Position numbers and translations under genes: made by a program. DNA of 64,000 bases, from NCBI GenBank assembly GCA_038087015.1, contig JASBNA010000073.1, forward strand, positions 124,001-188,000, read 5' to 3'. The DNA is from Cerrena zonata. Taxonomy: Eukaryota > Basidiomycota > Agaricomycetes > Polyporales > Cerrenaceae. The notes under the pieces were generated by a model. The model had not been told where the DNA came from. It saw nothing but the letters and a program-made list of their open reading frames with translations, and made no database searches. Of the stretch, positions 26,508 to 57,030 are shown piece after piece; position 1 is the first letter of the stretch, and the number at the start of each line of letters is the position of its first letter.

Positions 26508-28145
26508 CTAATTTTCTAATTTTTCAAACGAATCAACAAGATCTTCCACGAGGGGCCACGCGAACTCTCCAGTGCCTTTCCAAGTACTCGGCCTACCCAT
26601 ACGCAAGAGCTTCAACTTAAGACCAGCATCCACACGAGCCTGCAAGAAAGTTCGCAGTGTCCCCGCGAAATCATCCCCACACGTCGAATCAAGCAGGTCT
26701 AGCTTTTCGAGCTCTGGACAGAGTAGCATGCCGGGGGATGAAGAGCCATTGATGGCCTCCAGCATGGTCGGAAGGTGTGTCGCATTTGCTTCATGATCGT
26801 TGAACGGAAACTCAACTACCAACTTCTGCAATTTCGAATAACAAGAGAGCACGTTATGCCAACTTTCCCCGGTAAACTTGGCGTAACTAGCCATTATGGC
26901 CAGCCACTTGAGAGCAGCATTCGTTAGCATCTGCGGCAAAGCTTCGAATAGCGCTTGCGATTGACTGCAACCACAGAGTGTCTCATGGTCATCTGGATCT
27001 TCCATCGATTGGAAGATTACAACAAGTTCACCATTAGACTCTGTGGACGCGTGCAACATGAGGGACCACTCGAGAAATGGCCCAAATTCGATATCGATGC
27101 CAGGCGGGCCATCTGAAACCCAACCGAGGTGAACAAAGATCACATCGTTAAGAATATTTATGCTAGGTAGCATTCCTGCAACATCGCTAAAGTCCTTGCT
27201 CGGGATGAGGTATATGGTGTAATGGGTGTCCTCGGGTACTTCGAGGCGTTGAAGTAAGTCGGTGATGTCTCTTGTTTCATTCATCAGTACGATATTCCTC
27301 AGGTTGCGCAGAGCGACCTTGCGTCCGACAGCAAGAGGAGTTGGATCATTTGGATCTAGAGTTGGACCGGAGTGTTGAATACGCAGGTATTCCAATTGCG
27401 GACAGCGCTCCAATACATCGAGAAATGAGTCCATACTTGGGACTCGATCCGAATTATGATCACGTACTTGACCACGCAGATCCAAGTGACGCAAGCCGGC
27501 GAAGATGAATGAGTCCCAAGGTATGAAGACCTGGAAGAGACAGACACCGCGAAGTAGTCGTTGCTGAGGGGCAGAAACCGGATTGTACGTCCAATAGCAG
27601 TCGACTCTATCTCGGCATGCATCGTATGTGAAGATACTCTTGAGTTCGAGGGACTCAAGATTGGGCAGCTCCGTCTGCAAAGGTTCCAGCAGGTTCCACA
27701 TTGAAGTAAGATAACAAGCGAATCGGACATGGGCAATGCGTAGATGATGAGGTTGAATGAATTCTGTAAGAATGCTACCACGGTAGAAACCCAAAGAATG
27801 GATATGACTAGATGGGCTCCATGAGCTGATGGTCATGGGGAGCGTTGCAGACCGGCGGACGAAGATGTCGACGAGTTCAGTCTTCTTAAGTACATTGTAC
27901 GTCCACAGTTCGGGTGTAGCTAATGCAACATGACGCCAATGACGGCAGACACTGGCTGCGCGCATCCATCCTCGCGATTCCGGGTTGTCTGCTTGCACAG
28001 ATGCACGTAGTTCGAGGAGTACGAGGGATAGAGCATCCTGAGGAAGTTTGTTGATATCTGCACATTCATTGTGATATGCCTGAAGCACACCTGTCAGTGA
28101 GTTTTTACCATGTCCTATGGTACAAGTAAGGCGCCTAATACCCAT
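26508..28145 (-). CDS. F-box/LRR-like protein with repeat-derived N-terminus
   Basis: A frame of 545 residues. The F-box region reads INKLPQDALSLVLLELRA, followed by ASVCRHWRHVALATPELWTYNVL. Leucine-rich segments follow (LPNLESLELKSIF, LRHLDLRGQV, CPQLEYLRIQHSG, LCPELEKLDLLDS). It is a paralogue of 19715-21418, and similarity begins at about position 28085 (LQAYHNEC versus LRAYYNEW). The first 20 codons (MGIRRLTCTIGHGKNSLTG) have no match in the paralogue but match a repeat at 56955-57015. I infer that the original 5' end was replaced by the terminus of the large element starting at about 28088, so the true start is uncertain. Like the paralogue, it would be a substrate adaptor for an SCF ubiquitin ligase. 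Confidence 0.8.
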   Translation of the reverse strand: MGIRRLTCTIGHGKNSLTGVLQAYHNECADINKLPQDALSLVLLELRASVQADNPESRGWMRAASVCRHWRHVALATPELWTYNVLKKTELVDIFVRRSATLPMTISSWSPSSHIHSLGFYRGSILTEFIQPHHLRIAHVRFACYLTSMWNLLEPLQTELPNLESLELKSIFTYDACRDRVDCYWTYNPVSAPQQRLLRGVCLFQVFIPWDSFIFAGLRHLDLRGQVRDHNSDRVPSMDSFLDVLERCPQLEYLRIQHSGPTLDPNDPTPLAVGRKVALRNLRNIVLMNETRDITDLLQRLEVPEDTHYTIYLIPSKDFSDVAGMLPSINILNDVIFVHLGWVSDGPPGIDIEFGPFLEWSLMLHASTESNGELVVIFQSMEDPDDHETLCGCSQSQALFEALPQMLTNAALKWLAIMASYAKFTGESWHNVLSCYSKLQKLVVEFPFNDHEANATHLPTMLEAINGSSSPGMLLCPELEKLDLLDSTCGDDFAGTLRTFLQARVDAGLKLKLLRMGRPSTWKGTGEFAWPLVEDLVDSFEKLEN

Positions 28146-28600
28146 GCTGTATGGGGTGGTCGGCTCCAGCTGGGTATTTGTAATAGTTCATAGTGAATGG
28201 AGTAGTAAGGTATACTGATGGTACGCATGAAAGGTGGGGTTAGCTGGATGGTGCTGGGGTGGGGTGGGCATATGGGATCATTTCAATGAGTCATGTACAG
28301 TGGGAAGGTGGGGCTCACCAGTGGATTAACTGTAGGCATGAAAGGTGAGGTAGCTAGGTGGTGCTAAGGGTAGGGTAGTCATGCAGGAGTCTCTAGCGAG
28401 TCATGTAAGGTGGAAAGGCAGAGCTGACTACAGGCCTTGAGGGGTCCATGGAGGATGGCAAAGTAGACCATACCTATGAGGTCTATCCATATGAAATGGG
28501 CGGGTACACCCAATCAGCGTATATGAAAGGGGTCCATGTGGAATGTGTTAGCAGGAAAATCAGGGATGGATGGTTATATTGTTACGGTCTTAGGTTTGGT
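28088..28600 (-). repeat. left outer inverted repeat of the giant element
   Basis: Read on the minus strand, it shares ordered blocks with 56560-57030: CCCATTTCATATGGA followed by a related CTCA..ATGG..(C/T)AC stretch, then ACCCAGCTGG, then ATGGGTATTA(A/G)GC and TACTTGTACCAT. Within it, 28205-28320 and 28325-28430 form two degenerate tandem copies of about 110 bases with GCATGAAAGGTG and GAGTCATGTA in common. The stretch 28601-28905 beyond it holds no gene that I can recognise. Confidence 0.65.
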
Positions 28601-28905
28601 ATTGATAATACGTAGCGTAGGTGAGGTAGTGTATAGAATATTATGAGTACTTTTAAATGTAGTCACTCACCTACCAAGTACAGCAATAGAGCAATGATAC
28701 CAAAATATAGCATAGATGAAGTCTGGACCTTGAGGTGGACCACATCTATCTCATGACCAAATGCGATTTTAGGTATGCAAAGACATTGTTTCTGTTGCAA
28801 TTGTGAGTAGCGAGATGGGAATAATAGTATTGTGGACAACTGTGTTATAGAGCAGCAGCCACAAAATATCATCATGTTCGTGCGACAGGCTTCACCGCTC
28901 ATACA

Positions 28906-29619
28906 CACTGGACCATAGCCCAAATTTTGGGCTCCATAAAAGTAAAGTAAAATTTTATAAAAAGTCTCTTACAAAACATACTTTTTAGACCCAAAAAATG
29001 ATATAAAAATTCAGAATTGCAGCAGAATTTGATGAATCACAAAAACCTATATAAATTCTGACTTTTGTATCTAGTTTTTAGAGTTCAAAAAGGTTCAATT
29101 TTGATATATTTTTTGTTAGAGCAAAAATTGAAATACAAAATTCAAAGTTTTGACATACATTTATTTTTCCAAAACTGATATAAAATTTAAACTGCTGAAT
29201 TGGCAAGATGCATAGTATTGTATACCAAAATACCTCCATCAAATACTCTTATTGACAGGGACTATAATGTACTAAGAATAGTAGTCTATATCTTCTCTTT
29301 AGGCTGTCTATTTATGAAACTTTATTTTAATATATACAATTATATTATAATTTTTGACAAAATAAAAGTGTATCAAAATGTTGAATTTTGCATGCTGAAT
29401 TTTGCCCTAGCAAAAATATATGAAAATTGAGCTTTTTTGAACTCTGAAAAGTAGATACAAAAGTCTGAATTTGCACAGGTTTTTGTGATTTATTAATTTC
29501 TGCTGCAATTCAGAATTTTTAGATCATTTTTTGTGTCTGAAAATCATCTTTTGTAAGAGACTTTTTATAAAATTTTACTTTACTTTTATGGAGCTCAAAA
29601 TTTGGGCTACGATCCAGTG
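28906..29619 (+). mobile_element. CACTG-ended non-autonomous element, copy 1
   Basis: A 714-bp element starting CACTGGACCATAGCCC and ending in the inverted sequence GGGCTACGATCCAGTG. It is flanked by the 3-bp duplication ACA (28903-28905 and 29620-29622). Long, imperfect terminal inverted repeats extend about 300 bases inward, so most of the element can fold back on itself. The CACT(G) ends and 3-bp duplication are those of the CACTA/EnSpm superfamily. A 76-residue frame at 29200-29430 is conserved only because the copies are nearly identical. There is no transposase. Confidence 0.88.
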
Positions 29620-29714
29620 ACAGATGGGATAATCGGGTCAGATGCTGTCCGAGCTCTATTTCACACATCTTGTATGTGCTTAAGTTTTTCAACCGATGCA
29701 TCATAAATCGGACG

Positions 29715-30428
29715 CACTGGACCATAGCCCAAATTTTGGGCTCCATAAAAGTAAAGTAAAGTTTTATAAAAAGTCTCTTACAAAACATACTTTTTAGACC
29801 CAAAAAATGATGTAAAAATTCTAAATTGCAGTAGAAATTGATGAATCACAAAAACCTGTGCAAATTCAGACTTTTGTATCTACTTTTCAGAGTTCAAAAA
29901 AGCTCAATTTTCATATATTTTTGCTAGGGCAAAATTCAGCATGCAAAATTCAACATTTTGATACACTTTTATTTTGTCAAAAATTATAATATAATTGTAT
30001 ATATTAAAATAAAGTTTCATAAATAGACAGCCTAAAGAGAAGATATAGACTACTATTCTTAGTACATTATAGTCCCTGTCAATAAGAGTATTTGATGGAG
30101 GTATTTTGGTATACAATACTATGCATCTTGCCAATTCAGCAGTTTAAATTTTATATCAGTTTTGGAAAAATAAATGTATGTCAAAACTTTGAATTTTGTA
30201 TTTCAATTTTTGCTCTAACAAAAAATATATCAAAATTGAGCCTTTTTAAACTGTAAAAACTGGATACAAAAGTCAGAATTTGTATAGGTTTTTGTGATTT
30301 ATCAAATTCTGCTGCAATTTAGAATTTTTACATCATTTTTTGGGTCTAAAAAGTATGTTTTGTAAGAGACTTGTTATAAAATTTTACTTTACTTTTATGG
30401 AGCCCAAAATTCGGGCTATGGTCCAGTG
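29715..30428 (-). mobile_element. CACTG-ended non-autonomous element, copy 2 (inverted)
   Basis: A second 714-bp copy in the opposite internal orientation, 95 bases from copy 1. The target duplication is ACG (29712-29714 and 30429-30431). The central part is identical in translation to copy 1 over 76 codons, so the copies are recent. Copies 1 and 2 together make a palindrome of about 1.5 kb. It lies between the left outer repeat and the TCGG array of the giant element and so is younger than that repeat. Confidence 0.88.
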
Positions 30429-30476
30429 ACGGAGCAGTCAGTAGCCAATCCTCGAGACAAATATCGTACTAGAATG

Positions 30477-31063
30477 TCGGGTAGAGGAACCTTGACCCTA
30501 CATCGGGTGATGGTGTCGGTAAGTGGTGCTCAAGATTATTCTCGCCAAAGTTAGTCGGATAGAAGAACTTTGACAATACATCGGATGGCAGGGTCGGCGG
30601 TCAATATTTAAGACAAATCGCGCGTTAGAAAGTCGGATAGGGGAATTTGGCCATATCTCGGGTAGGATAATCGGTAGCCAGCATCTTACACAAATCTTGG
30701 CTTAAATAATCGGATGTAGGAACTTGAGCTTCATATCGGGTGGCAGAGTCGGTAGGTCCTATTTACAATGAATCTCGCACTGGAAAGTCGGATAGACAGA
30801 CTTTGGTCGTACATCGGGTGATAGAGTCGGTAGGCAACACTCAAGGTTATTCTCGCCAAAGTTAGTCGGATAGAAGAACTTTGACAATGCATCGGATGGC
30901 AGGGTCGGCGGTCAATATTTAAGACAAATCGCGCGTTAGAAAGTCGGATAGGAGAATTTGGCCATATCTCGGGTAGGATAATCGGTAGCCAGCATCTTAC
31001 ACAAATCTCGGCTTAAATAATTGGACGCATGAGTTTGAGCTGTATGTCGGGCGTCCCAGTCGG
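30477..31063 (+). repeat. left 13-bp-phased TCGG array
   Basis: TCGG sites lie at 30477, 30503, 30516, 30555, 30581, 30594, 30633, 30658, 30671, 30710, 30736, 30749, 30788, 30814, 30827, 30866, 30892, 30905, 30944, 30969, 30982, 31047 and 31060. The steps repeat as 26, 13 and 39 (with single-base deviations), so every site falls on a 13-bp lattice and the unit is 78 bp (two 39-bp half units, one of the four sites being degraded to TCGC). Longer-range copies 311 bp apart (30541 and 30852) are nearly identical. The array is the mirror image of that at 55746-56138. The spacing suggests binding sites for a protein on one face of DNA. That is inference. Confidence 0.85.
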
Positions 31064-31668
31064 TAGGCAATATATGAGATGAATCTCAGAAAGCATCTGT
31101 CTTGGGGCCTAGTTCGGGCGATAGTATGACTACTCGGTCGGGTGGAGATTTCAGACTGAAGGACATCCGACGCGAATCGGACAACCTGGCAAGACGATCG
31201 GTAGAAACTCAGTAGTAACCATACGTACACTAAATACGTCAAAACTTAGGGTTTTAGTGAGCGTAGTCCACCACTTCTGCAACAGCCGGCTTGGATCCGA
31301 TCTCGGGACTCGGACTACTAGGAGGCACACGTAAGGGCTAAGAGCAAGCATTGGGCATAGTCTAGTCGGGGTGGTGGAGAAGGTTTCGTTCAGTCAGGAG
31401 ACTGTCTTCAAGTAATCCTGATTTGGCTGCATATAACGACATTATTTCCAATTACTTCGCTCGCATGACTCACCTCGACGACCAATATACCTATCAATGG
31501 TTGGTATGAATTACAGCCTTGTATGATGCTCCCGAGACCCTCAAACTCGTTCGCCCGATCATGATCTCCGCCAATCAATTTATTAGCGGTTCAAACTCAG
31601 GGTTCAAACTCTCGTATGCGCAGCTGCTCTTTCCCCTTACCTTCACCCATTCCTCTTTCCTCATAGAC

Positions 31669-32925: not shown

Positions 32926-33983
32926 ATGGAGTCGCAACAAGAGCCTCAAGTTGATGCACCCAAATATCAAGGTAGTTGGAAATCGTCGTTTACTCACTGG
33001 GCCAACACAATGTTGGATCTCCACCGGTCGGGATCGTTGGAGACACAACAATGGTTTGAGCGTGTTCTCCCAATACTGGTGTGTTTTTCATGATACAAAC
33101 ATTTATCAGTTTAGGGATGATTATCTATCTTGCCCAATAGACCGACCAAAACCTTACGGAAATGCGCAGGAAAGGAACATACAAGGATGTAGATGGCGGT
33201 GTAGAACTGTTGCAGAAATATGTATCAACAAACTGGAGCGAGGATTGGAGATCGTTTGCTGGCGTCTTGTCACCAGTGGATAGTTCGGCTCGGGGACCTT
33301 GCAGATGAAAGTCGGCCGGAAACTTTCAACTCGGCTTACCCTATACTGGCCCTTTAACGCGAAAGCGAGCTCGACAGCAAACAGGAATAAAGGAGGACGA
33401 AGATACTTTACCTACGAAAGCCCCATCTCCATCGAAGCAAGTCACTGTGCCAGCCTCGGCGAAGAGGATGACGATGGTAGTGGAGGTCCCAAAATTTAAG
33501 ACGACTGTACCAAGTACGCTCGCTTCTCATTGTAATGACATTACTCAGAAACTGACATTAAGCTTTGCAGGATCTCCAAAGGCTAGTTCGAACTCCCCTG
33601 AGTGGGACGAGCTACGTACAAAAGAATGGGTTTTAGAGCAACAATCTCTTTCTAGATCCAGACTGCATGAAACAATCCCCACGTCCGATGCTATACCAGA
33701 CTATCTTGACATACCTCTCCCCAGTGGATCCTACCAACAAAAAGATCTCGAGAAGCGACTCGAGCAACAATATCAAGAACTCCATGAGCTAGAGCTCCAA
33801 CAGATGCATATTGAAGTGTTGCAGCGAGCAAAGGTGGAGAGTATTGCTAAGATTGAACATCTTCTCCAACAGGGGCAGACTTCGGGCTTCAGAGAAGTGG
33901 AAGAGGTGCTGCAAGAGAGGGGCCCTGGGTCGTCAGTAGGGAACCAACTGGAATATCGACTGAGGTCATCAAAGCAACTCTGA
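32926..33983 (+). pseudogene. coiled-coil cargo protein, paralogue C, with in-frame stop
   Basis: This is a paralogue of the genes at 52119-53404 (A) and 54026-55025 (B). Exon 1 (MESQQEPQVDAPKYQG, then HWANTMLDLHRSGSLETQQW) and exon 2 (DVDGGVELLQ, NWSEDWRSFAGVLSPVDSS) match A almost residue for residue. After SSARGPCR there is an in-frame TGA (33304-33306), and the same frame then continues as KSAGNFQLGLPYTGPLTRKRARQ and SAKRMTMVVEVPKFK, again matching A, which has about 25 more residues at this point. The C-terminus is a predicted coiled coil (KDLEKRLEQQYQELHELELQ, AKVESIAKIEHLL). Unless the stop is removed by splicing, the copy is broken. The function of the family is unknown. Confidence 0.7.
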
Positions 33984-34216
33984 TTAGCGAAACAAGCTTG
34001 GTACACATTTCCTGTTTGTAATTAGTATTTCTTGTCCTGTATTCTCTACTTGTCCGACCTTATTTCAAGGAATTCACAGCAAGGGTTGAAAATGCACAAA
34101 AGTCAGACGACACGATTGGATATCCAAATCTAGATCGATGTGCTCCACCCAGCTCTACACCTGTTTGCATTATCCGCATATTAACATCTAATCCTTAGGA
34201 CATTTACTATGATGCC

Positions 34217-34947
34217 TTAGAAGTTAAGAGCCTCTACATCAATGGATTCACCAGCGACTACATGAGCAAGAATTACCCTCGCCCTACTCAAGACCTCTGC
34301 CGAATCCGAGATCGCACCAACATACCGCCCGAGAAGGTCTCGCGGTACTCGCACTGCATACAGCCATTTCTTTCAGAGGTGTAAGCGCAAAAATGAGGAA
34401 GATAATCACTTATACGCACCTCCTTAACCGGCTGAAACCACCATGCTGGCTTCCCCACATCCGTTTCGGGCTCTTCCCACCAATGCAGAAGGGTGGAAAG
34501 ATAGTTCGAAGCATAACCAAACATCCATGGCAGGCAAGGGACAGGCGGTGGTGAGTCATCTTTACCTCGAGGGATTTTATTCCAGCGAATGACAGGCGGA
34601 AATGTGGAGAGGATATCCACCCAGGCTAGCCTTTTGGCTATTTCCTTGCTGAGCTCGGTGGTCATCAAACCCAGCATGCATGCGTCCGCCATGACATAAC
34701 GAAAATCCTCCTGTGAGTAGGATTAGTAAAGAATACAACACTCACGTTAAAAACATACCAGTTCCAAAACAAGGCCAATCTCCCAACGCAACGTCATCTC
34801 GAACAATTTCTCGTTTTCCAAGTGATAGGGGAAGGAGCGTGCCGCAGTATCAAGTCTCCAAAGACGATACGCAAATCGGGCAAGACAGATGCGCTCCGCC
34901 GTCTCTGGTACTATTATATCATCCACTGATGATGGTGGGCTTGACAT
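34217..34947 (-). CDS. hypothetical cargo protein
   Basis: Three exons on minus can be joined: MSSPPSSVDDIIVPETAERI through LRWEIGLVLEL; EDFRYVMADACMLGLMTTEL through WWFQPVKE; and KWLYAVRVPRDLLGRYVGAI through ESIDVEALNF, ending at 34217. The start could also be the in-frame ATG at 34980. The total is about 210 residues, rich in Trp and aliphatic residues. I do not recognise a family. There is no signal peptide and no clear membrane segment. It is encoded on the opposite strand to the coiled-coil gene just upstream and is followed by a CACTG-ended element. The last intron is my choice because the spliced reading gives a longer and more regular C-terminus than reading through. Confidence 0.55.
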
Positions 34948-35115: not shown

Positions 35116-35830
35116 CACTGGACCGTAGCCCAAATTTTGGGCTCCAGAAAAGTAAAGTAAAATTTTATAAAAAGTCTCTTACAAAACATACTTTTTAGAC
35201 CCAAAAAATGATGTAAAAATTCAGAATTGTAGCAGAATTTGATGAATCACAAAAACCTATATAAATTCTGACTTTTGTATCTAGTTTTTACAGTTTAAAA
35301 AGGCTCAATTTTGATACATTGTTTGTTAGAGCAAAATTTGAAATACAAAATTCAAAGTTTTGACACACATTTATTTTTCTAAAACTGATATAAAATTTAA
35401 ACTGCTAAATTGGCAAGATGCATAGTATTGTATACCAAAATACCTCCATCAAATACTCTTATTGACAGAGACTATGATGTACTAAGAATAGTAGTCTATA
35501 TCTTCTCTTTAGGCTGTCTATTCATGAAATTTTATTTTAATATGTACAATTATATTATAATTTTGAATAAGATAAAAGTATATCAAAATGTTAAATTTTG
35601 CATACTGAATTTTGCCCCAGCAAAAAATGTATGACAATTGAGCTTTTTTAAACTCTGAAAAGTGGATACAAAAGTCTGAATTTGCACAGGTTTTTGTGAT
35701 TTATTAATTTCTGTTGCAATTCAGAATTTTTAGATCATTTTTTGGGTCTGAAAATCATCTTTTGTAAGAGACTTTTTATAAAATTTTACTTTACTTTTAT
35801 GGAGCCCAAAATTTGGGCTACGGTCCAGTG
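35116..35830 (+). mobile_element. CACTG-ended non-autonomous element, copy 3
   Basis: A 715-bp copy with the same ends (CACTGGACCGTAGCCC ... GGGCTACGGTCCAGTG) and the 3-bp duplication CAT (35113-35115 and 35831-35833). It is in the same orientation as copy 1 and somewhat more diverged: the central frame differs at several codons. The flank 35834-36202 up to the transposase stop holds no gene that I can see. Confidence 0.88.
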
Positions 35831-36202: not shown

Positions 36203-39200
36203 TTAGGATGATTTGTGTTGATAATAGAGCTTTGTCCAATGCAGCTCCGATTTTATCAATTCCAATTCTTCATCCCACCGATCTTTTCGACACTTCGCCC
36301 GAAGCCAGTTGACCCGATACACTATATTCGGGAGTTCAATATACAGCTGATGGTAAGTAGCAGGAATGAGAAACGTACATTCCTGTATCCAGACTGGGTC
36401 CTCTGTGGCTGAGTGGTGACGTTGCCATATCCAGGACAGCGTTGCATTCCGCTGTCCGGCTGCGTTAAAATTGACAATCGCGGTGTTCGCTCCGACATCC
36501 GATTTGTGTAATACTTGATATTTTGACATTGTCTCATCGGATGCATTGAGGGATATCATAGCCTTGTGTGCAGACATATACACCTTTGCAAGGTAATCAA
36601 TTGTTCCTCCGATCGTCTGCACCTCCGCATAGTTTCTTAGACGGTCATGGTAGCCAGAGTTGGGATTCGTATGTCCTTTGCGAACCTTATTTCGAAATAC
36701 AAATGATTTTTGTCCAATCGCAAGGCGTAGAGCGTGTAAAGTATCGTTGGCCTGTCCTGTCCTGATTGCAAGCTCTACTTTTGTGATATCCTTTAAACGT
36801 CCAGCGCATTCCCCCCGCCCGAAAGCGGAGGGAAGGAGGAGCGTCTGTTTTTCAGCCGGAAGGGAGCTGTTGGGCAAATCGACAATGCCTGGATCCAACT
36901 CAACATCCTCTGGGTAGCTTCCTGGAACGACAAGCTCTCCTTCATCATCAAGCTCCCAGTCAGAGTCTTCGCGGGGGTCTATGGGTATGATAGAGTCGTC
37001 GTTAGCAGGCGGGAGATATATGTTTGAACTCCTATGAAATTCATCAATGCGCTTCTGAAGCTTAACACGCTTGTCATGTATCGCGGACTGGCGGTCGGGC
37101 GAAGGACGGCTGCCCGACTTGCGAATGTCCATGGCGAGTTCCATTCTTGGGGAAATATTAATATTTTCATTAAAAATATATGAATGCTGCCTACTGTTCT
37201 TCAGAGATCTGTATACCCGACGATATCCACTTTGCTGAACCTGGAAGTATTCCATTCATGGGGTCAATTTCCTTTCGAATCCACAGGCCTGCAGTGGCTG
37301 CCTTTCCAAGCTCTGCGATGCACTGAATATTGGTCAAAGTATCCGAGAATCGTACAACATACCTTTCTCATCCGAGATATCAAAGTTGTCCATGACCGAG
37401 ATATCGTTCTCACGCTCGACTTGTAGCTTTTCTTCGAGCTCAGTCCATCTTCGAGTATTCTCTGGGCTGACGGTCTCGCAAAGCGCCTCAAAATATGCCG
37501 TCGATGCGTGTACTTGTTTGACGGCTAATTCCCAATTCTTGAATAACGTGGGTACTGCACTAGCTCTGAGATGGCTGATGATAACAAAATATATAGGAAC
37601 GTACCCATATTGATCAATTTCTTCCAGTTGGAATCGCCGACATGTGTGTCAATGTACTCCTGCCTATGGTGCCATGACATTGCTTGCGCACTACTTGCGG
37701 TATGATTCAAGGGATTCCAGAGGGTTTCGATGATCTCGCCCACCAGCATTCCAGCTCCTCTAATAAATGTCGGAGCATACCTTGCAAAACATTGCTTCAC
37801 ATGGCCATGGATGTGAAAGAGGCCGATAGCCTTCTTGATTTTGATGTTAGGAGGCAGTGATAGATAGTTGCTAACGCTAGATACCCGTCTTTTGAAGTTG
37901 AGGAAGTACTGGCACATGATATCATAGATCATCATGACCATACTAAGGCCAGCGATGTAATTTATGGCGTTGACAAAGGCATAATCCATATAACGTTGGC
38001 TGGATATATACGCATCTTAGTCCAAATACAACAAAAGTTTTGGAATAGCCTTACCCCTCTCCTTTTCGAAAATTCACAATGCTGTTAGGGTAGAAACAAC
38101 CATGTCTACCACATGCAATTGCCCCTATTCCAGTGATGTCCAAATGTGCCTGCGTGTGGTTTTGTTGGCTGACAGCACGATGCTCGTGGCATGTTGATGA
38201 CTAGGATTGAGTTAACATCGTTGAAGGAGGGACTGGACTCAGTGATAATCTTACCAGGGCCTTTACTATAGGAGCCTCTGTAATATAGGCATCAAAACGC
38301 TTTCGGGAGACCATGTATGCCAGGCCATCGTTCAGAGCGACATCATCAAAACCATTTTTCATGGCGAGGTGGTCTTGCTTGAAGTTGCCATCGGCAAGTA
38401 ATGTGGGCATATATTTCCACCTTATTTAAGTGTCAGACTAGCAACAAAGACGGAAAACATTGTCTTACTGTTTCGGGTCATCTTTCCAGTTCTCCGGTAA
38501 ATTGACACCCGGTTGGGGACATGTCGGACAGAATAGGGCAAGGCCACCGGGCGATATTTCAGCATCTGGGATAACAAAGGGATGCCCTGCACGGCGTCGC
38601 AACATTAAATCTCTCCATTGACGAGATGCTCTCATCAGTTCCCGATACCTATTTGGAACTGTCTTCGGAAAGACATTGGAGGTCAAGCGAATAAGACAGT
38701 TATAGTATGTATACGCGGAGACCTTGCCCTCCAAATTGGAGATGTCAAAGTGCTCAAGAAGACCAAAGGTAAACGCTGTCCGTGTCTTTTTCCGAGATGC
38801 AGGAAAGAGACCCATCAATTGAAGTTGTTTATGTAAGGGATTGGTTGTGAGAGAATGACACCGACAAAATCTGACTCTCAGTTTGTGAACGCCTGTCATA
38901 TCGACGATAGTCATAAGAGGACATTGAAATTTGTCATATGATTGGTCGGTATGCTGTGACTTCAGTGCGATACTTGTATTTTGAACAGAAGCAGGTTCTT
39001 CTCCCTCGTCCTCGCTCGATCCTTGATAGAAAGGATCCTCGTCTGTGACAATTTCGACGAGCCGCCTCCGAATCCGATAGTGAGTCGCACGCACTTGATG
39101 AAAGATGGGTTTGGGCGATGATCTTGGAGGTGGTGGAGATGAAACCGGTGGGGTGGTTGATCGACTGGATTGCTGTAATGGAGGAACAGGAGGCGTCTGT

Positions 39201-40108
39201 GACAACGGTTGCACAGGGAGAGAAGGGGGAAGCTGCAAAGGGGAGGTTTCATACAAATTGAAATCTTCGTATTCCCAAAATCTGGATGGGATTGGCTCTG
39301 GGGTTGGAATTGATATTGGGGTGCCATCGACCATCGGTATGGTACGACTGATGGGTGGACCTTCGGGCGAGGTATTTCCATTGATATCGGGCGAGTGATG
39401 AGTATTCTCAATGTCTTGGGAGGGGTGGTGGGTCCGCTCAGGTAGTCCTTGGTGACGCGATCCATATTCTGGACACAATGATCCACCGTGTCCGAGATTG
39501 AGGGTAAGGCCCGCATCGTGCAGAGTTGAGGGATAAAAATAGTTTTCATTCCAGCACGATATATGATGAAATGGTTGTTGTTGATGAGAGTCGCAGAGAC
39601 AGATAGTGCAAAATACTGGTTCTCCGAAGCAACTGTGACACCTCCACTGCATCGACCTCGCGGGATTAATCGAATGGCAAGAAAGACATTTCTGAACGGA
39701 GGGTGGTGCATCTCTTGCGACAATGTCATATAGGATGTCTTGCCTAGACTCGACGTATTCTCGCATGTAATCATTTGGTGACTGGAACACATCAATCAAT
39801 ATAGAGTACAATTGTGAAATGAACCTGTGCGTTACCTTTCCTTTCACTGGGAGACTTCCAACAGCATGATGTACTGCATCCGATATATCAGGCGCTGACG
39901 TATCGGGAGGATGCTGCAATGAGTTTAACAGAGTGTTGGACTCATTAACATTGAGGGTTGGTCGGCGAGGAGAATGCGCTGGGCCTGGGACTGGAACCTT
40001 GGTGTATCGGGTTTTCTTTGATTTTCTGCTGCGAGGACCGGGATCGAAATAAGTATTATTCAGGGCATCCTCCAGGACAAGTTCTCTATTCTGTTTTTCA
40101 CACGGCAT
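36203..40108 (-). CDS. KDZ (Kyakuja-Dileera-Zisupton) transposase with CxC2-type Cys cluster
   Basis: A spliced gene of about 1,100 residues, starting MPCEKQNRELVLEDALNN. The order is a low-complexity N-terminus, a zinc-binding Cys/His cluster (CLSCHSINPARSMQWRCHSC, FCTICLCDSHQQQPFHHISCW), a Pro/Ser-rich linker, a second conserved block (CRCHSLTTNPLHKQLQLMGLFPAS ... LALFCPTCPQPGVNLPENW), and then the RNase-H-like core: LLADGNFKQDHL, HGCFYPNSIVNF, MDYAFVNAINYIAG, MIYDIMCQYF, HIHGHVKQCFARYAPTFIRGAG and GEIIETLWNPLN. The Asp of DGN, the Asp of YDIMC and a Glu of GEIIE are candidate catalytic acids. The C-terminus YRVNWLRAKCRKDRWDEELE ends at HKSS, about 40 residues earlier than the copy at 61436-64000. 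It moves DNA by cut-and-paste. No internal stop is seen, so it may be active. Confidence 0.9.
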
Positions 40109-48989: not shown

Positions 48990-49252
48990 TTCTAAAGGTT
49001 AAAAACTGGTATAAGAGAGAAACTAGAGTATTTCAGATGGCGGTAGCTAGGAAAGTGTGAGCGGTCAAATTACCTGCCGATCATGGTCAGCCAATCAGAA
49101 TCATCCCCCTATCTGACTACATTTGGCTATCGCTAAGATCAGTACACTTCCTGCTTGCGTTTCTACCTTGCACCACGATGTGAACTCGATCTCATGACAA
49201 GAAAGGGCCCGCACAACCTCCCCCACCAGTCAAACACAAACGACAACCGGTA

Positions 49253-51506
49253 ATGTATTTGGCTCGGCTTGAAGAAGAACTCCTGGCCAGTGCGCAGCGT
49301 CATAAGTTGGGCACTGTGTTCAAAGCGGGAGACAGGGAAACATTAGGTGACCGAATTCTCCCTCGACAGCCTAGTGGATCCAATGTTGGACCAATCCCAC
49401 CAAGCGGTCAGTTGTTCCATGTTACAATAATGCGAAAAGACTCACGTTCATGACTGTAGCTGATGTTGTAGAGTCTGATGACTCTGAGGATACCGATGAG
49501 TAGGTTACCAATCTGGAATAAACAGAGCCTTTCACCATAAGCTCACGCTATCCTTTAAAATGTAGCCATCAGCAATCCCCATTTCTCTTCGATGCACACC
49601 CTCTCCCTACTTCTGGAACACTCACTTCACATGAAGTGGCTATTTTCCATAGCGGAAGTGTACCCGACAGAGAAGAGACGGCATCTAGATCATCCACCCC
49701 TCCTTCATCTCGATTCAAATTTCGCAATATTGCTGCATCTTCAGGCGGAGACCAGTCTCCAGCTTCCTTCGTGAGTTCCTAATGATGTAAAGCAGTTCCA
49801 GCGAGACTAATTTACTTCTCATTACAAAAGTCTCTCCCACATCCGTTGACTCCCCTCAGTCTCCAACAGGTCAGACCTCCAAGCCCCTTGAATGACCTCA
49901 TCGATCGCGACTCGGGTGACTCCAGTGAAGATGGTCAACCTAGCCCATTTACGTTTACACCACAACATTCCGACGCCGAGAGCAGTGGTCCTGCTAGCCC
50001 GGTGAACTTGGACATTATATCTTTTGACAACGAGGTTAATCCCCCAACCCAGTCAATTTCCGCTGACCAAGACTCAGGCGATGATAGCGATGACAGCCTC
50101 CCAAGCCCATTCCATTTCTCTTCCCAGCACTCTGAGGATGAGAGCGACAATATCCCTCAAAGCCCATTCCGTTTCCCTGGCAACCAGTCGGCTGAGGAAA
50201 GCGATGATACCCCTCCAAGCCCATTTCGCTTCACTCATAACTTGGGCGGGGAAAGCGACAATACTCCCCCAAGCCCATTTCGCTTTGGTCACTGCTCGGG
50301 CGAGGATAGTGACGACCACTTGGGCGAGGATAGTGACGACCACTTGGGCAAGGATAGTGAGGAACCTCCAGCAAGCCCATTCTCCTTCTCGGATAAAGGC
50401 GCGGACGACGATGCTGATAGTCACCCTCCGAGTCCATTTAATCTCTTGGGCCAACACCGGGGTCATGAATTCGATGATCCCCTCGAACATTCTTCCAACT
50501 TAGACAACCAGGTGGCAGATGAAGACAGCAGTGATCGCAATCCGAGTCCATTCCTTTTTGCGACTGGGAACAACATCCACGGACGCCGTGCTGCCTCAGT
50601 AGGCGACGTCGGATTCAGTTTCATTTCTGGACACCCATCTTCTACACTTCGGGCATCCCCTGAGCCTGAGAATGTTTTATCGGACGAAGATCTCCGGATC
50701 CATGCAATTGAGATCTGGCACCAGCGGTACAAGCATATGTTCCCTGAAAAGCGCTATCCTTCCTCACACGTGAATGCTCCGGAGCCTCTGCTTTCAAAGG
50801 TATCCAGCAGGGATATCGAGCAACACCAAATGTCATTCCATAGGTACCTCGAATACCTTCGCCAACGAGACTTGTCAGGTGTTGGTAGGCAAGATGAGGA
50901 GGATAATGCGGTAATGATTATTCATGACTCAACCACCACTATAATTTATAACTTACATCATTTTAGCATCCCGAATCCGGTCGGAACGTTAACTCTGAGG
51001 ATAAGGGGAAGGGAAAGCTTTTTGTAAGGGTTATTTCACTACAGCACAAGCATTTATGTGATGAATCTCACTCTTGCAGGATGAGGAATATATCCTACAT
51101 GACAGTACGTCGGCCGATAGGAGAATAACCCCAGTAAGTTAAGCTGATCTCAAACACTTTTTGCTAGTCTAACAAAGTTGTAAAGCGACCCGACTCTACA
51201 TTATGGTCCGATTATCTTCAAGGCGTCGCAGGTATTCACTCCCTAAGTATGTTGCATTGCTTCAGCGTTAATCCTGGAGCATTGCAGGAGGATTTTGAAA
51301 TCCCATACTGCACCCTCAAACGGCGTCGCTCCAATTCGTTGTTGGACTTACCTCGGGCTACCAGTCATAGTGAAGCAATCTCCAACACGATTGCACTCTC
51401 AGAAGACCTTGAGGATCGCCTGTCTTTGCTTCAGGATCGCACCTTCGAACAGTTTAACTATTCTGTCTTGGCTCGTCTTGATACTTATAAGGACCTGAGA
51501 ATGTAA
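49253..51506 (+). CDS. acidic SPF-repeat cargo protein
   Basis: A spliced gene starting MYLARLEEELLASAQRHKLG. The main exon (about 49830-50925) encodes at least nine imperfect repeats of about 20 residues built on a core SPFxF, preceded by acidic Ser/Asp stretches (for example ESDDTPPSPFRF, ESDNTPPSPFRF, DADSHPPSPFNL). After this come IHAIEIWHQRYKHMFPEKRY and HQMSFHRYLEYLRQRDLSG, both probably helical. Further exons end in TLKRRRSNSLLDLPRATSHS and LEDRLSLLQDRTFEQFNYSV. No enzymatic domain is seen. Regular acidic-Ser-Phe repeats resemble disordered interaction motifs, possibly kinase or chromatin-factor docking sites, which is inference. A start at 49253 is the first in-frame Met that splices in phase. 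Confidence 0.6.
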
Positions 51507-52118
51507 TTTAATGTATTATACGTCAAATAGAATGTGAACTATGCCTTTAACATGAGGGAATTGGGGACACTACAGATCCTAAAGATAATGACTGGCAATG
51601 GTTTTTAAACACGAGTAAGTCGTCGGTATAGGCAAGTTTTCCTCTCGGGTCACACCAAACAAGTTTGCAGATTCCTCGGCCAAGAGCACGGTCTGAATAG
51701 GCTCTCTAATTATACCAGAAAAAAACCCGCTCAGAATTCATCTTCATCCCGAACGCCAACTTCGTCCGACCGCCTGCGTCCTTTGTGATTTGTCTCGTTT
51801 TACCGATCTTATCATCATCGCTATATTCTATCCGCTTTCGCATATGAAGATGTATATTGAATGACTGATTTCATTCTTTCGCATCCCTTGGTCCAGCTTA
51901 CATTGGTGTTATGGATTGTGTTCATGCCGCGATCTCATATTCTCTATTACTTGGCGACTACAAAATCGCTATGTTCCTTTGACTCTCTCATACGCATCAG
52001 GAATACTTTTCTTGGTTATACCCCTGTAATACATTGGAGAATAGATTACATTAGACTGTCTCTACACATTGAGCGAATCTGAACTACCTGACATAGAATA
52101 TATCATGAAGGAGCTACC
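51507..52118. other. intergenic region between convergent cargo genes
   Basis: I see no gene. A 73-residue hydrophobic frame at 51861-52082 lacks splice partners and motifs and looks like chance. Confidence 0.45.
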
Positions 52119-53404
52119 CTACTTTCTTACCGTTTTCTTTCCTCTTCCTTGAGACTTTATGTTATCTTGCAAAAACGGGTTAGACTCTCCGAAAACTTCA
52201 TTCTGTGGGGTTTGTGAGCTGTGTTGAAGGTATTCCTCGATCTGAGCGATACTCTCCCTCCTCACCCGCTGCTCTACCTCTATCTCTAATTGTTGAACCC
52301 GTAGCTGGAGGAGTTCGTGTTGTTGCTGCTCGATTCGCTTCTGCAATACATCCCGACTGAATGCAGCCAGCTCATTCGACCGATTTAGGGTGTGTGAAAG
52401 CGCTGCAGGTGCGGATGAGGATGCTGTGAGACGAGGTGCTTGCAGAGGTACTTGTAGAGCATGGGAGAGAGGCTGTTGGGTTGCACTGTGCTGCGAATGA
52501 GGGACTGAAGACATAGGCCCGAAGTCGGGAGCCATGAAATTACTCGGGGTAAGATTGTATGGACCTGGTTGACGTTCCACCGACTTGGAGGAATGGAGTT
52601 GTTGCTTTGGCATGATCGACAGATACGGTGAGATCTCGTTCAGCGCTGTCGAAATAACGCGACTTGGAGGGCCTATGCGAAGAACCGGAGAGCCTGCAGT
52701 GGTAAGTCGGAGGCAATGAAATGAGACCAAATCATATGCGTACTTGTGGGTTGCTTGTACTTTGGGATCTCCACCGCCACGGTCATTCTCCTCCCTGCTG
52801 AAGATGAAGCTGATGAAGTGACTCGCTTCGGTGGAGGAGGGGCTCTTGATGGTGAGATATCCTCGGCCGCTCCTACGCCCGACTGCTCACGAGCCCGCTT
52901 TCGTGTTACAGGGCCGGTATAGGGTGAGTCGACTTGAATGTCACCGGCTGACTTTCGTCTTCGAGCTCCCCGAGATTGGGACAACAGACCAGCATCTCCG
53001 GTTTGAGCCATAGGGCGAGACGAGGGTATCTGTTGACCGTTCCGCGAACTATCGACTGGTGCCAACACACCAGCAAACGATCTCCAATCCTCGCTCCAGT
53101 TCGAGGATACGTATCTTCGCAACACTTCCAGACCGCCGTCTACATCCTTGGATGTTCCTTTACTGCGCATTTCAGTAAGGTTTGCGTCGGTCTATGGGGT
53201 AAAATCAGATCTTCGGCTCCGATCTACTAGATGATTCGAGAACGAAAAGCATACCAGGATTGGGAGAACACGCACAAACCATTGTTGTGTCTCCAACGAT
53301 CCTGACCGGTGGAGATCCAACATGGTGTTCGCCCATTGAGTAAATGTCGATTTCCAACCACCTTGAGGCTTGCCTCTGTCAGTTTGAGGAATGTCTTGTG
53401 ACAT
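52119..53404 (-). CDS. coiled-coil cargo protein, paralogue A
   Basis: Exon 1 (from ATG 53404) reads MSQDIPQTDRGKPQGGWKST then TQWANTMLDLHRSGSLETQQ. Exon 2 reads NLTEMRSKGTSKDVDGGLEV, NWSEDWRSFAGVLAPVDSS, SPYTGPVTRKRAREQSG and RRMTVAVEIPKYK. The last exon has a Pro/Gln/Ser-rich region and a coiled coil (SRDVLQKRIEQQQHELLQLR, EQRVRRESIAQIEEYL), ending GRGKKTVRK at 52119. It is the intact member of a three-gene family (with 32926-33983 and 54026-55025). The in-frame ATG further upstream (53536) is less likely because the paralogues begin at this point. The function is unknown. The basic patches suggest nuclear localisation. Confidence 0.7.
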
Positions 53405-54025
53405 TGGTTTCAGCTTCAAGCGAATGTAGGGATATGTAGATGGCACGATCTCGGGATTGGCTTCCACTGAGGTTCGGGTCAATATTATAGTTACCGGCCG
53501 GCCCTGGGTCCCGCTACTCAGACCTGTTGGAATCAATAAGGCAATATTAAATTAAAGTGTTTCTATATGTACGTGATCATAAATCAGTCATTCGGGGTCC
53601 CAATGATAGCTTTGCTTAAGTAGAAACCATTTCCATGCGACTATACATTTCAAGGACTACGTAAACAATGTATAATAGTATCAGTAAGGGAATAGTACAA
53701 GCGGTGTATAAGAATTATTGGAGGAGGTATATACAATGCAAGCAACGACTGTGGAATCCAAGAAATAAGCGGTACAACTGTTATTACAATTCAAGAAATG
53801 AGTATTAAGATCAAGAAGCTAAAGTGGCACCAATGTTCATAAGTGTGGAGAGTTGTAGATGTATTGGGAGTTTACTGTCAATATCTATCAAGAAAATGGC
53901 GGAAGTTAGCGTAGTGGGAGGGACTGCATCTGTAGCGTTTGAAAGACTGTAAGCGGATGTTAGCGGAATGAGACAGCGAGCGACCATCGATAAGATACAT
54001 ACCTTCCACAGCAGTCGCAAGAGAA
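53405..54025. other. intergenic region
   Basis: This is the promoter region of paralogue A and the 3' flank of paralogue B. It contains no gene or repeat that I recognise. Confidence 0.45.
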
Positions 54026-55025
54026 TTACTCGCTGTCCCACTCTGTCTCCTCCTCAAGTTTCACCTCGTGTTCCTCATCGCTCAACTGCAAGTAAGATCG
54101 AATGTTAGAGATACTTTCCCGTGTGGCATGCTCTTTGGTATCCAAGTCCATTCGGGTTAGTTCGAGCTGGAAAATCTTGCTCTCTTGTTTTTCGAGTTGC
54201 TTGTGTAACGCATCCCGACTGAACCTTCCCAACCGCATCGGGTCCGATGGTCCAGCTCGTGATGAAGAGCCTTCCATAGGGTCCGGACGAGGTTGGTGAG
54301 ATGTGGACGCAGTCGGCTCATGGGACCGTGCAACTCTAACACCTGGTCGGGATGACTGACCCGAGCCACTCTTGGTGAATGAGATTGCACGTCGCCCTCT
54401 AGAGATCGCTGGTATGGCGATATAAGTGCGCGTTATGGAGTCTGGATCAGAATACGTACCGACTTCATCTTCCTCGTCGTTGGATGCGATCGTCGCTCGT
54501 TTTGCAAGTCCTCTCAGTAGTTCTCCGCGAGCTCGCCGTTTGGACTGAATGTCTTCCTCGCGTTCGATTCGCGCACGCTCGGCCGATCGTCGTCTTTCTG
54601 CAAAGCGACGCGGCGGGCCTATCCGCATGGTGCCACCAGCTGGGGCGGGAGAACGAGAATCGCGACGCTGTTCCAACGTTCGGTTTTCTAAGTTGGGAGC
54701 CAAACAACCAGCGTATGGCCTGTAGTCCTCCACCCAGATGTCTTCCACATGTCCACACAGCAGCGTCATCCCCTCCTCTACTTCCATCTGCGTGCCTCTG
54801 TCTCTGAAGCGATTCAAGTTCGCTTCAGTCTGATTTTCGTAGTGTGATTAGTTGTTATTATTCTAGCATGAGAACACTTACCACCATGGGTAGTACGGAT
54901 TCGAAGAATGTCAGGGCAGACACGGATCCCGTGCGGTGGAGGTGGACCATCGCCAGTGCCCAGGTTTCGAAAGTGGTCCTCCTGTTATCACGAATTAGAT
55001 CCGCCTCAGATTTGATTCGTTGCAT
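54026..55025 (-). CDS. coiled-coil cargo protein, paralogue B
   Basis: Two or three exons encode about 290 residues. The N-terminus (MQRIKSEADLIRDNRRTTFE, then LHRTGSVSALTFFESVLPMV) aligns with the first exon of paralogue A. TEANLNRFRDRGTQMEVEEG follows in the position of A's TDANLTEMRSKG. The middle is Arg-rich (RRFAERRRSAERARIEREED). The C-terminus has the family coiled coil (SRDALHKQLEKQESKIFQLE, HATRESISNIRSYL) and an acidic end EEETEWDSE. It is more divergent from A and C than they are from each other. I choose the ATG at 55025 over 55136 from this alignment. Confidence 0.65.
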
Positions 55026-55280
55026 GTCGATCGGAGATGAATTGTAATAGAGAGGATGGTGAAGAGATGGTGGTTTATTCTTCGAAACGTTGCCGCGCAG
55101 CTTAGCGGTCTTGATCCTGATACAGTCATGACTCATATCCCACTACTAGTGCACTACGTCATGGGAGAATCGCGCCGATCACTTACCGGATACTGCCGGA
55201 TACGGGCGGTATAACCATACAGGGCCTTATGTCAGGTAAATGAGTAAAGGAGTAACGGGGAAAGCCAACCCGAGCGTACG

Positions 55281-55370
55281 TATGTCGGACGAGCACATGT
55301 ATGTCGGGCGAGCATATGTATGTCGGGCGAGCATATGTATGTCGGGTGAGCATATGTATGTCGGGCGACA
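55281..55370 (+). repeat. 19-bp tandem repeat containing TCGGGCGA
   Basis: Units start at 55281, 55300, 55319, 55338 and 55357 with the consensus TATGTCGGGCGAGCATATG. The array is contiguous, with no spacers, so it is not a CRISPR array. It supplies three exact copies of the octamer TCGGGCGA and lies just inside the right CCGA array. Confidence 0.9.
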
Positions 55371-55745
55371 GGTTGAGCTGGTGACTAATTTGAGACAGGT
55401 CGTCAATCGCCCGACCGTTGACCTGAAGTCAACATCGCTCCAGCTCTGATCGTACTACTGACATCCGAGATTCTACCATTTGAGCCTGCTATCCATTAAC
55501 TAGGGCAAGCAGAGATATAGAGGCGAGAACTAGTCAAAATGCTTCCTCCCAACTTAATTAGCCGGCGTTCTCTCAAAGTTAGTCTGGCCGAATATACTGT
55601 CCGACTTCTGCTCGATATTGAGCAATCCGTGTGTGCTACGCGAGTTTTGCTTTGAACTCAGACAGACCGAGAGCGACAGCCGATAATATTCTAATCCGTC
55701 ATCCGCGCGACTCAACCATCCTAATTTTCATGATCAAGGTCAGTT

Positions 55746-56138
55746 CCGAAGTACCAATCCGAATTTGACTTCTAAACGCCAAGATCCGAGTCTGCTATCC
55801 GACATTTGTCCCAGTCGTGGTTGACCGAGAAATTCATCCGAAAACTGTTCGAAATGTAATCTCCCGAGCTAATCATCCGACAGCGTCTCACATTGGACTA
55901 TCCCGAAGATTTAATCCGAAGGTAACTCAATATCATAATGTCCGAGTCTGTCGTCCGAAATTTGAGTCAACTTGGACCGACCGACATTTGTTGCCGAAGA
56001 CGAATTCAGATACGTTTCCCCGACTGAATTACACGACATATTCAACCATGTAGTAGTACCCGATGCTACAATCCGAGGTCACCTCGCGATATTTGTACCC
56101 GACTAGACAAAGTGGTACAGACCGACTGATGTACCCGA
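55746..56138 (-). repeat. right 13-bp-phased CCGA array (mirror of left TCGG array)
   Basis: CCGA sites lie at 55746, 55759, 55786, 55799, 55825, 55838, 55864, 55877, 55903, 55916, 55942, 55955, 55981, 55994, 56020, 56060, 56073, 56099, 56122 and 56135. Pairs 13 apart (CCGA-N9-CCGA) recur every 39 bp. Less regular CCGA sites extend back to about 55600. The flanking sequence between sites is largely different from the left array, so the spacing is better conserved than the bases. No gene is seen in 55371-56559. Confidence 0.85.
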
Positions 56139-56559
56139 CTATCGCCCCCACTGCTCTCGTCGACTGTCTACCAGTAACATGCTCGTGTCATAGCTACATT
56201 GTGTCGCTCTCCACCTTTCACATCCGGTGACATGTTGTCGAACGTATACTGTCGTCCGATGCAGTTCCACCCGACTGAAGATTGAACCCGACTAGCGAAC
56301 TGTAGGCTGGGATGGAATTGAATTGTCCTGCTGCAGTACCTTGGGATCATTCTCCCCATATTACTACCTATATTGACGGTTGGAATATCATTTTCCGATG
56401 TTCGAAATCATATCCAATCGCAAGATAGACCTTGCCTACCTCGATGTCGCATCTGATTCATGCTGTATTTTTGCCACTATGCCATGTTTACATATGCATA
56501 CGACTGATATGTGACAATAATAATTTCAACATTCTTATACAGTACTCCACCCATACCAA

Positions 56560-57030
56560 ACATTACAGATATAAAGGTACAGAGCAGCCCATTCACCCTG
56601 GTAGACCCCTCTAATCCACCTCATATGGATGGGTTCGCAGGTGTTAGGATGATCCATCAGCCCATTTCATATGGACCAATCTCACGAGCATGGCCCACCA
56701 TATCATCTGCTGTGGGGACTGTCATCTTGCTAGCTGACCTAGTCATTCCACGACCAGTGGGTTGGCTCAAGGAATTATAAAAATCTCCCCCCTCTGTCCA
56801 TCATAGATGGTGTCCTGGTATATATCCTCATGCAGTAGCAGGACCCACCTACTCATTGTATATGACGGTGTGAACCTTACTTTAGGATGGCCAACTACTC
56901 CATGTATAGTGGCGCTACTGGGAAACCCAGCTGGGCCCTACTACCTCATGGTACATGGGTATTAAGCACCCTACTTGTACCATTGTACATGGGAAAATGT
57001 CATTGAAAGGGCTGTGTGTGACAGTTGAAG
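56560..57030 (+). repeat. right outer inverted repeat of the giant element
   Basis: This matches the minus-strand reading of 28088-28600 in order: CCCATTTCATATGGA, then ACCCAGCTGG, then ATGGGTATTAAGC and TACTTGTACCAT, ending near 57030. The similarity is patchy (clear blocks separated by divergent sequence), indicating an older pair than the family-2 termini. The 56140-56559 stretch between the array and this repeat holds no gene. Confidence 0.6.

Follow-up and report, generated by a model that had tools for sequence, protein, structure and literature searches.

The 64,000-nucleotide stretch analyzed here (the window) lies on contig C73 (JASBNA010000073.1; C73:124001-188000) of the Cerrena zonata assembly GCA_038087015.1 and contains a 28.9-kb element (~26.8 kb minus three nested 714-bp CACTG insertions). 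A KDZ transposase and a TET/JBP dioxygenase are accompanied in it by a set of further genes, including one for a protein with a Zn2Cys6-like cysteine cluster, and both ends carry arrays of TCGG sites (Table 1). Gene models were obtained with a simple finder based on codon usage and splice rules, and all genes are predicted; nine models fall within the element, or ten when the smaller open frames of an earlier first-pass annotation are counted. All searches for copies were made within this one assembly (55.5 Mb, 171 contigs).

The termini were set at the points where copies cease to match. A right-end query matched C103:72630-74084 at an identity rounded to 100%, with the match halting at window position 57014, and a left-end query matched C31:11423-12240. 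The first-pass annotation had proposed a mobile unit at 28088 to 57030; the element itself is borne out, and its exact limits are corrected by the copy boundaries to 28086 and 57014. The mirror-image outer repeats described there are imperfect terminal inverted repeats with 77.9% identity over 86 nucleotides (28090-28175 versus 57010-56925). Local alignment of the outer 150 nucleotides of both ends, the left one taken from the C31 copy, gave a score of 106 versus a maximum of 29 in 60 shuffles. At nucleotides 150 to 1500, the score was 82 versus 46 for shuffles, and the similarity, though weak, thus exceeds the short blocks that had been listed. Mirror symmetry also extends to the terminal genes, as had been claimed: the left terminal gene (32926-33983) and its paralogue on the right (52119-53404) are 83.9% identical over 322 nucleotides of DNA in inverted orientation.

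A second copy, ~99% identical to the window copy and with other flanks, is divided between contigs C31 and C103, each of which terminates within the element. C31 and C103 differ by 11 substitutions in 10357 compared positions of their overlap (gaps uncounted), whereas the window and C103 differ at 149 of 24871 positions (~6 per kb, down to 0 to 2 per kb in the last 3 kb); most simply, therefore, C31 and C103 represent one copy (A) and the window another (B). Three copies of this family had been suspected from the 99.6% identity of the C31-C103 alignment, an idea dropped in view of the 11 substitutions in favor of two copies and a more distant relative on C53. The two flanks of the window copy are unlike each other, and so are those of C31 and C103. 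However, the last seven bases of the C31 left flank are exactly the first seven of the window right flank (TGTGTGA), a target duplication that is assembled from two contigs (C31 and C73). When these two flanks were joined, 179 bases (query positions 57 to 235) matched C7:657087-657265 at 72% identity, spanning the junction without a net gap; apart from the flanks' own sequences, the genome gave one further match, which lies on C26 and is one-sided. Judged by this alignment, the C7 sequence is a paralogous uninterrupted site. Since both the heptamer and the joined-flank match pair the C31 left flank with the window right flank, the right flanks of copies A and B have been swapped, whether by recombination within these almost identical right ends or through an assembly error. 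Because the window flanks stem from different insertions, no success would be expected from a search for an empty site that connects 28087 with 57031. Taken together, the near-identical second copy, whose termini agree but whose flanks differ, the 7-bp duplication, and the paralogous uninterrupted site support the view, already put forward in the first-pass annotation, that the whole stretch transposes as one KDZ unit, with the defined ends and target duplication of the KDZ superfamily.

Right-type termini were found 58 times genome-wide when one mismatch was allowed, versus 16 times for a control pattern. A KDZ match lay within 20 kb inward of 24 of the 58 and outward of 4; this count was first made with an incomplete KDZ list and came out the same when all 141 KDZ matches were included.

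The CACTG..CAGTG insertions are 714 to 715 bp long and have 3-bp duplications. Two near the left end had been recognized before and were both found, and a third lies further inward. All three are missing from the C31 copy and thus entered the window copy after copies A and B separated.

Table 1. Predicted genes and other features of the 28.9-kb KDZ element and its surroundings (window coordinates unless a contig is named)
Feature	Position	Strand	Remarks
Whole element	28086..57014	.	Termini 5'-CACACC ... GGGCTG-3'; copy limits C31:12242 and C103:72630; same terminus types in C53 relative
Left terminal inverted repeat	28086..28206	+	Imperfect, ~120 bp
Nested CACTG..CAGTG element 1	28906..29619	.	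Duplication ACA; absent in C31
Left TCGG array, 13-bp grid	29620..31220	+	31 sites; R(13)=0.78; interrupted by a CACTG copy; limits approximate, from C31
Nested CACTG element 2	29715..30428	.	Duplication ACG; absent in C31
Left terminal gene, 297-aa model	32926..33983	+	Gene model; relatives in C53
203-aa model	34288..34947	-	9 Trp residues; no Pfam match; 50% identical in C53
Nested CACTG element 3	35116..35830	.	Duplication CAT; missing from both C31 and C103
KDZ transposase with CxC2 cysteine cluster	36203..40108	-	Two models joined over an intron with an AAG acceptor; intron read directly
TET/JBP dioxygenase, 351-aa model	40171..41464	-	Pfam Tet_JBP 1.8e-11; PDB 7vpn 1.2e-7
Centre gene, 836-aa model	41943..44836	+	First 326 residues without confident Pfam match; 38% identical in C53
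Zn2Cys6-like protein, ~1140 aa	45089..48989	-	Six-Cys pattern; PDB and Pfam profiles; annotated relatives
Acidic SPF-repeat protein, 591-aa model	49253..51506	+	632 aa with relaxed acceptor rule; relative in C53
Right terminal gene, 390-aa model	52119..53404	-	Paralogue of left terminal gene
Outermost right terminal gene, 396-aa model	53811..55136	-	75% identical in C53
Right TCGG array, 13-bp grid	55364..56314	-	30 sites, inward-facing; R(13)=0.65
Right terminal inverted repeat	56894..57014	-	
7-bp target duplication TGTGTGA	57015..57021	+	Paired with the C31 copy's left flank and not with 28079-28085
Flanking 17.8-kb KDZ elements	C73:108405-126158 and C73:182699-200413		

Pfam scans covered 20 open frames and then five more proteins, four of them from the element. 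Both the KDZ transposase and the TET/JBP gene named in the first-pass annotation were recovered, the former with the KDZ superfamily domain (PF18758; 2.7e-27) and CxC2 (5.3e-24) and the latter with Tet_JBP (1.9e-12 in the open-frame scan). The TET model aligns with CcTet, its best PDB match, over the HRD and HGV motifs. When an AAG acceptor is permitted, the finder merges TET and transposase into one model; we treat them as two predicted genes, since the TET frame ends in a stop of its own; fusion is the alternative. The J-domain protein once listed as cargo is not upheld: none of these scans gave a J-domain match, and the gene models contain a single HPD tripeptide, close to where the TET part begins. 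The 203-aa gene may be related to a gene of a neighboring 17.8-kb KDZ family (E, 0.051). Within the centre gene, window positions 44297 to 44620 hold a 162-bp tandem duplication of in-frame length, of which the C103 copy apparently has one unit fewer.

A more distant, 45.6-kb element (C53:206096-251752) has both terminus types of the 29-kb element and contains nearly the whole gene set in the same order (all inverted) at 28 to 75% protein identity. Genome-wide, the 141 KDZ matches merge into 86 loci. Within 15 kb of these loci, a zone that covers at most 4.6% of the genome, were found 48 of 53 TET matches, 25 of 31 Zn2Cys6 matches, 17 of 18 centre gene matches, 9 of 11 matches to the C-terminal SPF exon, and 11 of 15 right terminal gene matches (15 of 15 within 25 kb), counts that include the window and its copy and in which one gene may yield several matches. 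Many clusters have the order KDZ, TET (~+2.4 kb), centre gene (+5.0 kb), Zn2Cys6 (~+8.6 kb), and SPF exon (+12.4 kb), and 34 KDZ clusters are devoid of the accompanying genes. Among the 45 KDZ loci with TET, 23 have the Zn2Cys6 gene within 16 kb, versus 2 of the 41 loci without TET (Fisher 1.2e-6, uncorrected for duplicates or phylogeny); of the latter two, C53 does possess a TET, which the family search overlooked. In a large element at C1:2153534-2176907, the KDZ-TET-centre block runs in the opposite direction to the block of Zn2Cys6, SPF, and terminal genes. The terminal genes were matched only in the 29-kb family, C53, and the C1/C37 elements. As the order KDZ, TET/JBP, centre gene, Zn2Cys6 gene, and SPF-type gene recurs wholly or partly across KDZ elements of this genome, most of the further genes are parts of the element and not host cargo. 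For most of the genes, the earlier picture of cargo gives way to a set that many KDZ elements, and the C53 relative, have in much the same arrangement and at comparable distances.

Compared with C53, the nonsynonymous divergence (dN) was 0.27 for the TET+KDZ model and 0.55 to 0.78 for the centre, Zn2Cys6, and SPF models, with synonymous divergence (dS) saturated and not computable; for the two right terminal genes, dN and dS were 0.73 and 2.79, and 0.11 and 0.26. When eight models (TET and transposase fused) were compared with C103, no new stop was seen and the Zn2Cys6 model had four gapped codons. For the fused model, the C31 row contained two new stops and 27 inserted bases, none of which occur in the C103 row. 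In these codon comparisons, 2220 of 2511 bases of the centre gene were covered, and the C31 row for gene 52119 was dropped since it matched the paralogue. Protein database searches for homologues in other fungi yielded nothing beyond proteins of C. zonata and an unnamed one of 282 aa; because such a search needs shared five-residue words, this does not show restriction to Cerrena. Two side observations were made on the C53 element. At C53:213322-215442, there is a chimeric fragment in which pieces matching window positions 39090-39615 and 53649-55250 are adjacent (75 to 87% identity), and long inverted repeats by both ends (C53:208040-212891 and 243778-248851) form a second case of mirror-image structure.

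On either side of the 29-kb element lies a 17.8-kb KDZ element; these two are 98% identical, are in direct orientation, and reach into the window at 1-2158 and 58699-64000. A TET gene, a relative of the centre gene, and a six-Cys protein are present in the first, which was the one examined. In this family, 7-bp duplications are in place on C12 (CTGCACT) and at the first C73 copy (GCGATAG), and ATGTAAA is common to the left flank on C17 and the right flank on C59, contigs that may join at this heptamer. Contigs C17, C59, C73, C153, C31, and C103 end inside KDZ elements or no more than ~1.5 kb away from them, which would fit misjoined repeats. An outer inverted repeat spanning 57 kb (1261-2151 versus 59624-58706) was considered as the ends of a larger element and rejected because the repeats belong to two different 17.8-kb KDZ elements, one being a right end and the other a left end. 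Elsewhere to the left of the 29-kb element, window positions 19807-20686 and 27171-28056 are inverted related stretches (66% identical), positions 24001-26000 are AT rich (32% GC) with 91- and 99-bp tandem repeats, and a frame at 26508-28187, with an F-box-like match slightly below the cutoff, overlaps the element's left terminus.

Zn2Cys6 proteins have the pattern C-x2-C-x6-C-x5-12-C-x2-C-x6-8-C, and the cysteine spacing in the window protein is C-x2-C-x6-C-x9-C-x2-C-x6-C. The pattern is present in this protein, in its C53 relative, and in the 17.8-kb family, where it is kept at 24% identity, and in total in 10 of 12 aligned sequences. With a 42-position profile built from eight sequences chosen for having the six-Cys pattern, a PDB search (E ≤ 10) gave four matches, all to Zn2Cys6 factors (Pho7 and Leu3), including one under a systematic name that we take to be Pho7. 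Pfam Zn_clus was matched by four of the eight members (best, 0.0026), and one relative is named Zn(2)-C6 protein in UniRef. Mainly on the basis of its cysteine spacing, this is probably a Zn2Cys6 DNA-binding protein. This protein, the Cys-cluster/coiled-coil protein of the first-pass annotation, also has weak coiled-coil and bZIP matches downstream of the cluster, both below the cutoff (ODAD1_CC, 0.0013; bZIP_1, 0.0057). The best PDB match, Pho7, binds TCG(G/C)(A/T)xxTTxAA, according to the available part of its description (PMC5559640).

The paired phased arrays noted earlier were confirmed as 31 (left) and 30 (right) inward-facing TCGG sites on a 13-bp grid, versus 3 and 0 sites in reverse orientation, with spacings of mainly 13, 26, and 39. 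Measured from the termini, they extend over ~0.8 to 1.7 kb on the left, as read on the C31 copy, and 0.7 to 1.65 kb on the right. Similar positions in the C53 relative hold 22 and 26 sites; dinucleotide shuffles yield at most 15. At the four ends (29-kb left and right, C53 left and right), the period-13 phase statistic R(13) was 0.78, 0.65, 0.40, and 0.63, and none of 5000 random placements reached the phase of the first, second, and fourth arrays. Tandem repeats of 78 and 311 bp occur in the left array. A genome-wide grid search (three consecutive TCGG sites, one mismatch) was uninformative, with 134 matches versus 97 for the control. In the 17.8-kb family, the word with the strongest strand bias is TCGT (15 to 0 and 15 to 1), a bias that is only suggestive because the sites lie within tandem repeats.

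The ratio of observed to expected CpG was 0.19 to 0.40 in the outer 500 bp of the four ends and 1.17 to 1.43 in the arrays, with a reference median of 0.90 over 948 windows, elements included. Along with this strong CpG depletion, the outermost 500 bp of both the 29-kb and the 45.6-kb element show somewhat raised TpG and CpA. The CpG pattern would fit methylation and deamination of the ends with protection of the arrays, although selection on the motif alone would look alike.

From these sequence patterns, we propose that the Zn2Cys6 protein may bind the arrays and that TET may hold their CpGs in an unmethylated state. We consider it fairly probable that the element is a large cut-and-paste KDZ transposon with core genes, whose arrays are bound by the Zn2Cys6 protein and protected from CpG methylation by TET. 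The transposase would cut at the CA..TG termini and thereby make the 7-bp target duplication; the termini and the duplication are observed. The Zn2Cys6 protein would bind the CGG-containing 13-bp grid at both ends, aiding assembly or activation of the ends, and the dioxygenase would keep the array CpGs free of 5-methylcytosine, so that the sites stay bindable. More tentatively, and with considerable doubt, the Zn2Cys6 protein could bring TET to its own TCGG grid, so that each family clears its own ends while protein and grid co-evolve; this reading pairs TCGG with the 29- and 45.6-kb elements and TCGT with the 17.8-kb family.

Several observations weigh against parts of this proposal. Two annotated models of the cysteine-cluster protein, P0001 and P0003 (2 of the 12 sequences), are without the full pattern, although the DNA frame behind P0001 has it. 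The PDB profile matches are weak (E, 0.28 to 0.9) and align half clusters, and the window member is without a Pfam Zn_clus match. Basic residues usually stand between the cysteines of Zn2Cys6 clusters and are missing in the window copy, and the predicted structure of this region was left unused at a predicted local distance difference test score (pLDDT) of 39.9. Array limits were chosen after the sites were seen, the phase of the left array is inflated because the array is partly a tandem duplication, and the C53 left array (R(13)=0.40; best period, 13.2) was equaled by 142 of 5000 random sets. Moreover, the 17.8-kb family has the Zn2Cys6-like protein but no TCGG array. As to mobility, neither the C73-left/C103-right flank pair nor the flanks of the C53 relative show a 7-bp duplication, and in the 17.8-kb family none is seen between the two ends of the second C73 copy or of the copies on C17, C59, and C153. 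Between the window and C103, the eight models show 30 synonymous and 67 nonsynonymous differences and hence no strong constraint in the recent copies. Finally, the recurrence counts overstate the number of independent families because of the inclusion of the window and its copy, the multiple matches per gene, and near-duplicate contigs.

Among the alternatives, it is extremely improbable that segmental duplication or haplotype variation produced the copies in place of transposition. Contigs do break within copies and the window copy is chimeric in its flanks, but the termini are exactly common to the copies and C53, and the 7-bp duplication, the paralogous uninterrupted site, and the presence of the transposase likewise speak against it. 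That the genes are passengers gathered by one element, as in Starships, might be suggested by its size and by its genes of no known family. This we hold to be very unlikely, and for the core genes it is contradicted by the presence of the same genes, similarly ordered and spaced, in many other KDZ elements and in a collinear relative.

The other alternatives concern the arrays. They may be upstream activating sequences only, driving the outermost inward genes without a role in end recognition. Both arrays indeed lie upstream of the first inward-reading gene models (32926-33983, plus strand; 53811-55136, minus strand), and the right one stops ~0.2 kb from its gene. However, the left array stops ~1.7 kb from its gene, and the location near both termini recurs in the C53 relative, so that we regard a purely regulatory role as somewhat unlikely. 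It is slightly less likely still that the arrays are bound by the transposase, using CxC2 or some other domain, while the Zn2Cys6 protein does something else. CxC2 belongs to the transposase, and other transposases bind subterminal repeats, but CGG triplets are what most well-studied Zn2Cys6 proteins recognize, and Pho7, the best PDB match, binds TCGG. The tandem repeats in the left array would agree with selectively neutral tandem-repeat remnants, an explanation that appears distinctly unlikely given that the four ends of two elements have 22 to 31 sites each, mostly inward and on an ~13-bp grid, that blastn aligns only the outermost 93 to 163 bp of the ends between the 29-kb and C53 elements, and that the shuffles fall short of these site numbers.

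Linkage of KDZ and TET/JBP genes in basidiomycetes was reportedly described by Iyer et al. in 2014. Judged by sequence features, the element is probably a new variant of the TET+ Kyakuja (KDZ) group, with which it has in common KDZ plus TET/JBP, 7-bp duplications, 5'-CA..TG-3' termini, and occurrence in Agaricomycetes including Polyporales, as far as the available part of that account goes (Kojima 2025, PMC12730594). Here, the duplications are TGTGTGA and the three of the 17.8-kb family, and the termini are CACACC..GGGCTG. The group is described with 7-bp duplications and CA..TG termini and without terminal inverted repeats for Kyakuja-1_LB and -2_LB, in the same part of the account (PMC12730594), whereas our element has imperfect inverted repeats of ~120 bp; the label stays provisional because these are read as within-group variation and not as a defining feature. 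The multigene core, the lengths of 17.8 to 45.6 kb, and the 13-bp phased arrays go beyond Kyakuja as described there, where the part available names no further genes, and CcTet is called close to the AG-type TET (PMC12730594). Cryptococcus neoformans KDZ1-3 likewise have a KDZ transposase with a CxC cluster and terminal inverted repeats and were shown to be mobile, but they are 9.2 to 11 kb long with repeats of 139 to 241 bp, their duplications are 8 bp (KDZ1) or 4 to 8 bp (KDZ2 and KDZ3) and not 7 bp, and TET is not mentioned in the available part of the report (PMC12810828). Among the matches listed, in literature available in part, none dealt with KDZ elements that have phased arrays or a conserved core of genes.

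Starships, as far as the accessible accounts describe them, are likewise large fungal mobile elements with many genes but differ in their tyrosine recombinase and variable cargo. A tyrosine recombinase captain gene is the Starship hallmark. None was found among the 20 open frames scanned, a subset of all open frames. The plant VANDAL elements are not known to carry a TET dioxygenase, and En/Spm elements have an unrelated transposase, a TnpA that is not known to be a Zn2Cys6 protein, and no known TET. In En/Spm-type CACTA elements, a second element-encoded protein, TnpA, binds subterminal repeats and is needed beside the transposase, according to the available excerpt (PMC2613891). VANC of VANDAL elements is likewise an element-encoded, sequence-specific protein with rapidly diverging noncoding tandem-repeat targets, and it induces loss of silent chromatin marks; in the part of that study available, its binding is shown (PMC10398659), whereas that of the Zn2Cys6 protein is inferred. 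Taken together, the present data suggest that the KDZ elements of this genome are large multigene transposons with a core set and not a transposase with passengers. In the available part of his paper, Kojima speculates that fungal TET acts without target specificity (PMC12730594); the recurring DNA-binding-like partner gene and the CpG-bearing end arrays described here make TET targeting directly testable.

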